Positions 8,060-56,344 of a stretch of DNA of 64,000 bases are shown here, piece by piece. Every line of letters starts with the position of its first letter. Within the stretch, counting starts at the first letter, position 1. This stretch comes from Brevundimonas sp. (lineage in GTDB: Bacteria > Pseudomonadota > Alphaproteobacteria > Caulobacterales > Caulobacteraceae): contig NZ_PNLV01000002.1 of the NCBI RefSeq assembly GCF_013823285.1, positions 1 through 64,000 on the forward strand, read 5' to 3'. Below the pieces are notes generated by a model. That model saw nothing but the letters and a program-made list of their open reading frames with translations. It was not told the DNA's origin and searched no databases. The position numbers were made by a program, and so were the translations under genes.

Positions 8060-8601
8060 GGCATCGTATCTAGAGCGGCCGCGTCAGCGGGTGAAGGCGT
8101 TTCAGACCTGCGGCGGGGCAAAAGGCGCAATAGGGGAATATTGAGGGCTGCGCCGCCGATCAAAGCAATCAGGCCGGAACCAGCCGTCAGGGCGCCTGCC
8201 CATCGACTGTCCAAAACGCCGTCAGGGTAGATGAGCGCGCCTTCAAGCGCTCCGGGCTCTAGCGCCAACCATAGACCCAGACCTGTCCAGACGAGACCAA
8301 GAAGCATCACGGCCAAGCCCACCAGCGATAGCAGCGCGAGCGGGATGACAACGATGATCCATCGGCGAGGCGACGGAAGTTCTCCAACGTGTCCCATGGA
8401 TCTGGCGATGAGCCAGAGGCGCCAACCAATGAGACCGGCAAGCGCTGCCGATACAAGCGCCGTCCCCAACGAAGGCTGATAGGCGCCGTCCGGACTCATG
8501 GCTGTGAAGGATGCAACGAAGGCAAGCAGGCAGATCGGCAGAGCGACCCAGTAGATGGCCAGGACCGCACGTTTGAAAAGGCGGCTGGACCTCAAGCTCA
8601 T
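8056..8601 (-). CDS. Hypothetical multi-pass membrane protein
   Basis: 181 aa with about 4-5 hydrophobic segments; 4-bp ATGA overlaps with both neighbours. Confidence 0.6.
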
Positions 8602-55706: not shown

Positions 55707-55754
55707 CCCCTTGTCATCCCGGAAGCGCCGCCAGGCGCTATCCGGGACGGGACG
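55707..55754. repeat. REP-like palindromic repeat, copy A
   Basis: ccccttgtcatcccggaagcgccgccaggcgctatccgggacgggacg; near-identical to copy B. Confidence 0.85.
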
Positions 55755-56061
55755 GCAGCGCCCCACCACCCACCAGTGCAGGGTAAAGGTCCCCCCACTG
55801 CGGGTTCCCCGCCTCCACCAGCGCGAACTTCCACGCCCGCCGCCACCGCTTGATCCGCTTCTCCCTCAGGATCGCCTGATCCACGTATTGGTGCGGCTCG
55901 TACCAGACCAACCCGTCGATGCCGTTCTCCCGCGTATAGCCGTCAACCTGCCCGCGCCTGTGCTCCTCCACCCGCCGCACCAGATCGTTGGTCATCCCCA
56001 CAGACAGCCACCCGCACGGCCCGCTGGCGAGAATGTAGACCCAGTAGCTGTGCGCCCGCAT
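55738..56061 (-). CDS. GIY-YIG nuclease family protein
   Basis: MRAHSYWVYILASGPCGWLSVGMTNDLVRRVEEHRRGQVDGYTRENGIDGLVWYEPHQYVDQAILREKRIKRWRRAWK: classic small GIY-YIG protein. Confidence 0.9.
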   Translation of the reverse strand: MRAHSYWVYILASGPCGWLSVGMTNDLVRRVEEHRRGQVDGYTRENGIDGLVWYEPHQYVDQAILREKRIKRWRRAWKFALVEAGNPQWGDLYPALVGGGALPSRPG

Positions 56062-56144
56062 GTCCGCCTCCCTCAAAGGAACATAACAAGAACAGCGATA
56101 TGTGAAAAGCCCCGTCGTGCAACGCGACGGCGGCGCAGAACCAC

Positions 56145-56191
56145 CCCCTTGTCATCCCGGAAGCGCCGCAGGCGCTATCCGGGACGGGACG
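56145..56191. repeat. REP-like palindromic repeat, copy B
   Basis: ccccttgtcatcccggaagcgccgcaggcgctatccgggacgggacg; 1-nt indel versus copy A. Confidence 0.85.
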
Positions 56192-56344
56192 CCACGCCCT
56201 CCTCTCCCAGGGCCCGGACGGCGCCCCGCGCCGATCCGGGCCAACGGCGGCCCTTCGCCCGGCTCAGCCTCCCGGCTGTCCGGGCGGCAAAATCAGCGCC
56301 CCTTCGTCCCGGCTCTCTGCGTCGCTCCGGCCGGGATGACAAGG
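56145..56344. mobile_element. BIME/MITE-like non-coding element with terminal inverted repeats
   Basis: ccttgtcatcccgg on the left and ccgggatgacaagg (56331-56344) on the right; intergenic, GC-rich, many secondary hairpins. Confidence 0.45.

Follow-up and report, generated by a model that had tools for sequence, protein, structure and literature searches.

Stand-alone GIY-YIG nuclease genes bracketed by REP-like palindromes in Brevundimonas and its relatives: a probable counterpart of the REPIN-RAYT system

REPs are in general known as partners of RAYT transposases (PMC3733652, PMC3116915). One of their two large superfamilies, the CGTC REPs, was described by Di Nocera, De Gregorio and Rocco in 2013 as repeats that 'apparently lack a dedicated transposase', and none of the transposase genes checked by these authors was flanked by them (PMC3733652). 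The same paper includes the CGTC-1 repeats of Neisseria, and GIY-YIG proteins go unmentioned in it (PMC3733652). A search of the literature outside subscription journals and preprints retrieved no paper linking GIY-YIG proteins with REPs, REPINs or RAYTs and, to our knowledge, the system proposed below would be the first in which the enzyme serving REPs is not a Y1 HUH transposase.

The locus described here lies in a window of 64,000 nt (the whole stretch of DNA analyzed) from a Brevundimonas draft genome (G000). A previous sequence-only reading of this DNA had noticed a small gene placed between two near-identical palindromes (copies A and B, Table 1) and had put forward, as a hypothesis on the pattern of REP-RAYT, a partnership between the encoded nuclease and the repeats. 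The coordinates of both copies, their shared orientation and the single 1-nt indel between them proved to be as claimed, their folding into hairpins was corroborated (z about -3.7, with none of 200 shuffles folding as well), and the gene between them was confirmed as a member of the GIY-YIG family (PF01541; 36 bits for a cut-off of 22.6), with its TAG at 55738-55740, inside copy A, from which the C-terminal residues PSRPG* are read. Extension of nuclease ORFs into the downstream REP was observed often, yielding the recurrent C-terminal tails PSRPG, DPRVKPEDDG and VPACAGMSG in the window protein and in those of the F2 clade (F2 being one of the palindrome families). The sequence-only reading had overlooked a third, inverted palindrome, which makes up with copy B an inverted (HH) mosaic unit of about 200 nt, and comparable units are found elsewhere in the genome (L018, L021). 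When the window was searched with an 18-nt seed, allowing up to 3 mismatches, 3 sites were obtained versus 0.08 expected from shuffles; the third of these sites (8334-8351, minus strand) is a partial match to the head of the palindrome, TTGTCATCCCGCTCGCGC, with 3 mismatches. The window repeat folds as a bulged 13-pair stem with a loop of 3-4 nt and a CGG tail, carrying the tag TGTC in both copies, and on account of this stem, loop and tail it is taken to be a divergent relative of the CGTC REPs.

Table 1. Positions of the features discussed (window coordinates unless a locus or contig is given)
Feature	Position	Strand	Basis and remarks
Stand-alone GIY-YIG nuclease gene	55738-56076	-	ORF; 112 aa from TTG 56076; likely start ATG 56061, 107 aa
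Codon TCT (Ser) in place of the YIG tyrosine codon	56002-56004	-	Alignment of 100 proteins; Tyr in the other 99
REP-like palindrome, copy A	55707-55754 (48 nt)	+	TGTC-tagged; includes the nuclease stop codon; hairpin z -3.8; dispersed family
REP-like palindrome, copy B	56145-56191 (47 nt)	+	Within the gene's 5' leader; hairpin z -3.7
Third palindrome, diverged and inverted	56305-56344	-	CCTTGTCATCCCGGCCGGAGCG...GGGACG; hairpin alone not significant, z -1.2
Interior of the HH unit (copy B to third palindrome)	56192-56304		Many short inverted repeats; like the spacers in L018 and L021
DUF559 genes	L358-L387 (relatives); G000:C6:6900-7214, C6:9706-10020, C76:2-307		23/29 bracketed, by another palindrome superfamily, CCTTCTCCCC...GGGGAGAAGGTGGC..GGATGAGGGG

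The active site of the family is strongly conserved. In an alignment of 100 proteins, Y18 was present in 99/99 sequences, Y29 in 99/100, R39 in 99/100, H43 in 100/100 and E76 in 99/99, while N95 was found in 90 sequences; dN/dS values ranged from 0.04 to 0.21 across 15 pairs, denoting purifying selection. The window gene represents the family poorly, as its product is without an active-site tyrosine that all the other aligned proteins have: it may encode an inactive or weakened enzyme, or be a dying copy, or the base in question may be a sequencing error. The AlphaFold model of its product reached a pLDDT of 79, from 7 sequences only, and its nearest folds were UPF0213, Slx1 and the UvrC N-domain, with weak Foldseek E-values; the best PDB matches were the UPF0213 proteins 1zg2 and 1ywl. 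Searches of the NCBIfam, Rfam and PADLOC models, the latter covering known anti-phage defence proteins, gave no match.

A whole-genome search for the window repeat, a check suggested by the sequence-only reading, returned about 20 copies in the 2.8-Mb assembly (15 strong and several weaker ones), many of them at contig ends, and TTGTCATCCCGG occurred 18 times in the genome, compared with 0 occurrences of its reversed control. The genome holds four PF01541 matches, one of them uvrC-sized and the remaining three stand-alone, and all three stand-alone genes are bracketed by palindromes, each by a different family, those of the other two being CGCTCATCCCCGCGCACGCGGGGACCCAG (contig C84) and CGTCATGGCCGGGCTTGTCCCGGCCATCCAT (contig C16). 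Contig ends often consist of these repeats (C7, C72, C93, C118 and C139 of G000; C127 of G013; the start of NZ_BATC01000002.1), so draft assemblies undercount the repeats and break at GIY-YIG cassettes.

The association was then considered in relatives, for which 100 stand-alone GIY-YIG genes of Brevundimonas and its order were retrieved with their surroundings. A gene was counted as flanked when a matched direct or inverted repeat, scoring at least 18, lay within 350 bp on both sides. This held for 72 of the 100 GIY-YIG genes, versus 9 of 1309 control intervals (0.7%) of equal length taken from these regions. With a gene-matched control, 62 of 99 GIY-YIG genes (63%) were flanked, versus 3 of 230 small ORFs (1.3%; Fisher p = 8e-37). 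The outcome that the sequence-only reading had named as a refutation, repeats with no enrichment near GIY-YIG genes, was checked and did not occur. Scorable genes were flanked in 54/76 cases within the genus and in 16/22 cases among the order's other families. All eight relatives from outside the genus taken as named records, that is, seven Sphingomonadales and one MAG (Novosphingobium, Sphingobium, Qipengyuania and Sphingomonas are among them), were also flanked. In a phylum-wide sample divided at a subfamily score of 65, a cut chosen after the scores had been seen, palindromes flanked 17 of 25 REP-type proteins, which resemble the order-level set, and none of the 44 YhbQ-type ones, which fall below that score. 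Several distant GIY-YIG proteins (L268, L298, L302, L310, L316 and L317) have flanking palindromes of the form CTTCGA..CTCAGG / CCTGAG..TCGAAGG, which are not CGTC-tagged.

Genes encoding DUF559 proteins served as a specificity control. Of these, 23/29 were bracketed as well, mostly by CCTTCTCCC...GGGAGAAGG palindromes. When the type of palindrome on both sides was compared, GIY-YIG genes had 62 of CGTC type and 1 of CCTTCTCCC type, whereas DUF559 genes had 5 and 21, respectively (p = 1e-14). Since the palindrome types of the two gene families differ, it can be argued that the nuclease-REP pairing is specific and that it has arisen more than once. These data bear on the notion that the arrangement is accidental, or that REPs tend generically to adjoin small accessory genes, which could appeal to the abundance of REPs between genes in these genomes and to the flanking of DUF559 genes too. 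Given the scarcity of flanks around small ORFs, their absence around YhbQ-type GIY-YIG genes and the different type beside DUF559 genes, we regard this notion as the least credible of those considered; at the level tested, these three controls rule out chance and generic gene-end REPs.

The general partnership of REPs with RAYTs, documented in the works cited above, would favor another possibility, namely that a RAYT or some other Y1 transposase mobilizes the REPs, which would gather beside uninvolved GIY-YIG genes. However, PF01797 (Y1 HUH) was not found in 40 of the 41 genus genomes, the sole match being in G018, which is not REP-rich. The genomes G008 and G032, with 28 and 31 F2 copies, respectively, gave no PF01797 match, and the search worked in the positive controls, E. 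coli and Caulobacter. The window protein belongs to PF01541 and not to PF01797, the RAYT domain, and the palindromes carry GTC after C or T as their tag, the GTAG/GGAG tag of RAYT-associated REPs being absent. Mobilization by RAYTs is disfavored by the lack of PF01797 in all but one genome, and we judge it very improbable.

Further evidence came from the correspondence between nucleases and palindromes. On the GIY-YIG protein tree, the palindrome families group by clade: CCTAGGC-CTTGT-GCCTAGG accompanies the L129/L135/L145 clade, and CCTCGGG-CTTGA-CCCGAGG accompanies the L104/L116/L121/L143/L140/L106 clade. The correlation of protein with palindrome was r = 0.52 in a Mantel test, with 0 of 2000 permutations as high, the test being restricted to non-orthologous pairs from different genomes, which lowers the contribution of shared ancestry and leaves part of it. 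Among 18 distinct CGTC/TGTC-tagged palindromes, 95.7% of the stem cells are paired, double changes are observed at 8 of the 9 stem pairs, and the covariation amounts to 0.63, versus 0.16 for shuffles and at most 0.21 for slid versions. The letters GTC of the tag, the first A of the stem, the CTTG of the loop and the first C of the tail are invariant in all of them. Such co-varying stems, together with a fixed GTC tag and a fixed CTTG loop, fit the recognition of a hairpin with a clade-specific stem. In 39 distinct variants with a 9-bp stem and a CTTG loop located beside the GIY-YIG genes, the tag in that register was CGTC in 19 cases and TGTC in 2; F1 and F3 repeats mostly have a stem with AT first and a CCA tail, and F2 tails are CGA or CGG.

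The palindromes also exist without the gene. A survey of pairs in the 41 genus genomes revealed that they are dispersed genome-wide as inverted pairs, mainly 77-81 nt apart and also 100-108 nt apart (for F2, 34 of 47 pairs at 70-83 nt and 8 at 100-108 nt), while the arms of the inverted pair that forms a gene cassette lie 360-361 nt from each other. Cassette leaders and the inner arms of pairs lacking the gene are alike in the sequence adjoining the REP, as exemplified by TCGGGTTGTCCGC in G008, and the mean best identity between leaders and arms, with five leaders scored, was 14.2, a narrow excess over the maximum of 14.0 in 500 shuffles. The number of F2 copies matches the presence of the gene, with a median of 15 in genomes bearing an F2-clade gene versus 1 in those without it (p = 1e-5, kinship ignored; G009, which has 25 copies and only a gene remnant, was left out of the comparison). 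That remnant (L338:606-918, contig C1) consists of a REP pair 278 nt apart around a decayed, truncated GIY-YIG gene, in which residues 60-100 are readable, and it appears to be an intermediate between the gene cassette and the gene-less REPIN. REPIN pairs have inverted ends, one of the two marks of MITEs and insertion sequences, the other being a target-site duplication. A solitary REPIN could be set against an empty site in one case (L201 of G001 and L238 of G026, about 93% identity), and the near flanks had diverged, with neither a precise insertion junction nor a target-site duplication readable. One REPIN of G001 corresponds to a single collapsed palindrome in G026, and one intergenic site is occupied in G001 by a REPIN whose family differs from that of the REPIN found there in G026 and G023 (L202 compared with L264 and L240), hinting at preferred landing sites.

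Some of these features might be explained by a homing-type nuclease that cleaves REP pairs and whose gene inserts there, having no part in making the repeats. In the F2 clade the gene does lie inside a REP pair, with one arm to each side of it, and a comparison of neighbors (tblastx, strict limits) assigned the F2-clade genes of 14 genomes to no fewer than 8 distinct loci, with one side of the cassette conserved and the other one different between L121 and L116. However, homing does not account for the larger number of repeats where the cognate gene is present, nor for the sub-terminal sequence common to REPIN arms and the gene leader, and outside the F2 clade an entire REP unit is found on either side of the gene. 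The window gene itself is free-standing and intergenic, and not inside an intron, an intein or a conserved gene, the settings by which homing endonucleases are recognized. We consider this explanation unlikely.

GIY-YIG genes often occupy one and the same position across a number of genomes, which denotes vertical persistence at orthologous loci. At the site of the window cassette, 14 genus genomes have the neighboring kinase gene (about 60-63% protein identity) with no GIY-YIG gene there, the intergenic DNA being too diverged for a junction to be read, and the closest genome (95% DNA identity) possesses the gene, its contig ending within it. Vertical persistence, the strong purifying selection and the structural kinship with the structure-specific nucleases Slx1 and UvrC would suit a domesticated enzyme that removes or processes REP hairpins in repair, at the replication fork or in the control of recombination, the ability to mobilize them having been lost or never possessed. 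By itself, such a role leaves unexplained why each clade has its own palindromes and why gene-less deletion derivatives exist, and we hold it to be a doubtful, if somewhat less remote, possibility.

Taken together, the enrichment, the co-divergence of clades and palindromes, the matching copy numbers and the coexistence of gene-bearing and gene-less forms strongly support the partnership proposed by the sequence-only reading. The observations are best integrated by assuming that the GIY-YIG gene and the palindromes quite probably constitute one system, that is, a REP element with a dedicated enzyme, similar to REPIN-RAYT, in which a GIY-YIG nuclease replaces the Y1 HUH transposase. We infer that this nuclease would cut and mobilize the palindromes, cleave next to the tag and spread them in trans. 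In the proposed model, the autonomous form would be a nuclease gene enclosed by two inverted palindromes, or by one REP unit per side, and the gene-less, REPIN-like pairs of about 100 bp would be non-autonomous derivatives served in trans. The nuclease would recognize its cognate palindrome, probably when replication extrudes it as a hairpin, by means of the loop, clade-specific bases of the stem and the GTC tag, which is invariant and unpaired, and would nick beside the tag; repair of the break, or copying, would then seed new pairs in intergenic DNA. GIY-YIG enzymes form no covalent intermediate with DNA, and therefore the transposition step would need other host functions. Against this model stand the frequent location of the genes at one locus, the single REPIN/empty-site comparison, in which no insertion junction could be read, the 28% or so of the sampled genes without matched flanks, the gene-less genomes rich in F2 copies (14 in G007 and 13 in G035, from incomplete assemblies or past presence of the gene) and the Ser variant of the window.

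GIY-YIG nucleases are probably the missing spreaders of the CGTC REPs. Whether the whole amounts to an undescribed class of mobile elements, whose GIY-YIG nuclease works on hairpin ends, propagates both itself and many gene-less pairs and would be responsible for most proteobacterial CGTC REPs, including the dRS3-like ones (the CGTC-1 repeats of Neisseria, which we take to be those named dRS3), with a parallel DUF559 system, is a proposition to which we give an even chance. If true, 'nuclease plus cognate REP' would be a general kind of element, invented repeatedly, and a function would be provided for the very common, unnamed 'GIY-YIG nuclease family proteins'. Each palindrome family having its own nuclease, the spread of CGTC REPs becomes directly testable using small, readily purified proteins.

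As to the known systems, stand-alone UPF0213/YhbQ-type GIY-YIG proteins share the fold and the size with the enzymes considered here, in contrast to which none of the 44 YhbQ-type genes sampled has flanking palindromes. The REPIN-RAYT system likewise comprises a small REP-flanked enzyme gene, co-divergence of enzyme and REP, gene-less inverted pairs and often vertical inheritance, although there the enzyme has the HUH Y1 fold and the REPs are of the GTAG type, while here the fold is GIY-YIG, the tag is another one and Y1 proteins are absent from all but one of the 41 genus genomes. Most of the palindromes appear to be the same kind of repeat as the alphaproteobacterial CGTC REPs, with which they share the unpaired CGTC/TGTC tag, a predominance of HH dimers, represented here by the inverted pairs at 77-81 nt and by copy B with the third palindrome, and, for the larger part, a 9-bp stem starting with AT, a 5-nt loop and a CCA tail, from which the window repeat departs by its longer, bulged stem and its CGG tail; the difference is that no enzyme gene was associated with CGTC REPs in their description (PMC3733652), whereas the majority of those described here accompany GIY-YIG genes. 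The likeness extends to the neisserial dRS3-like repeats, as CGTCATTCCCGCG...CGGGAATCCAG palindromes bracket GIY-YIG genes in other proteobacterial families, outside Neisseria (L279, L280, L307 and L308).
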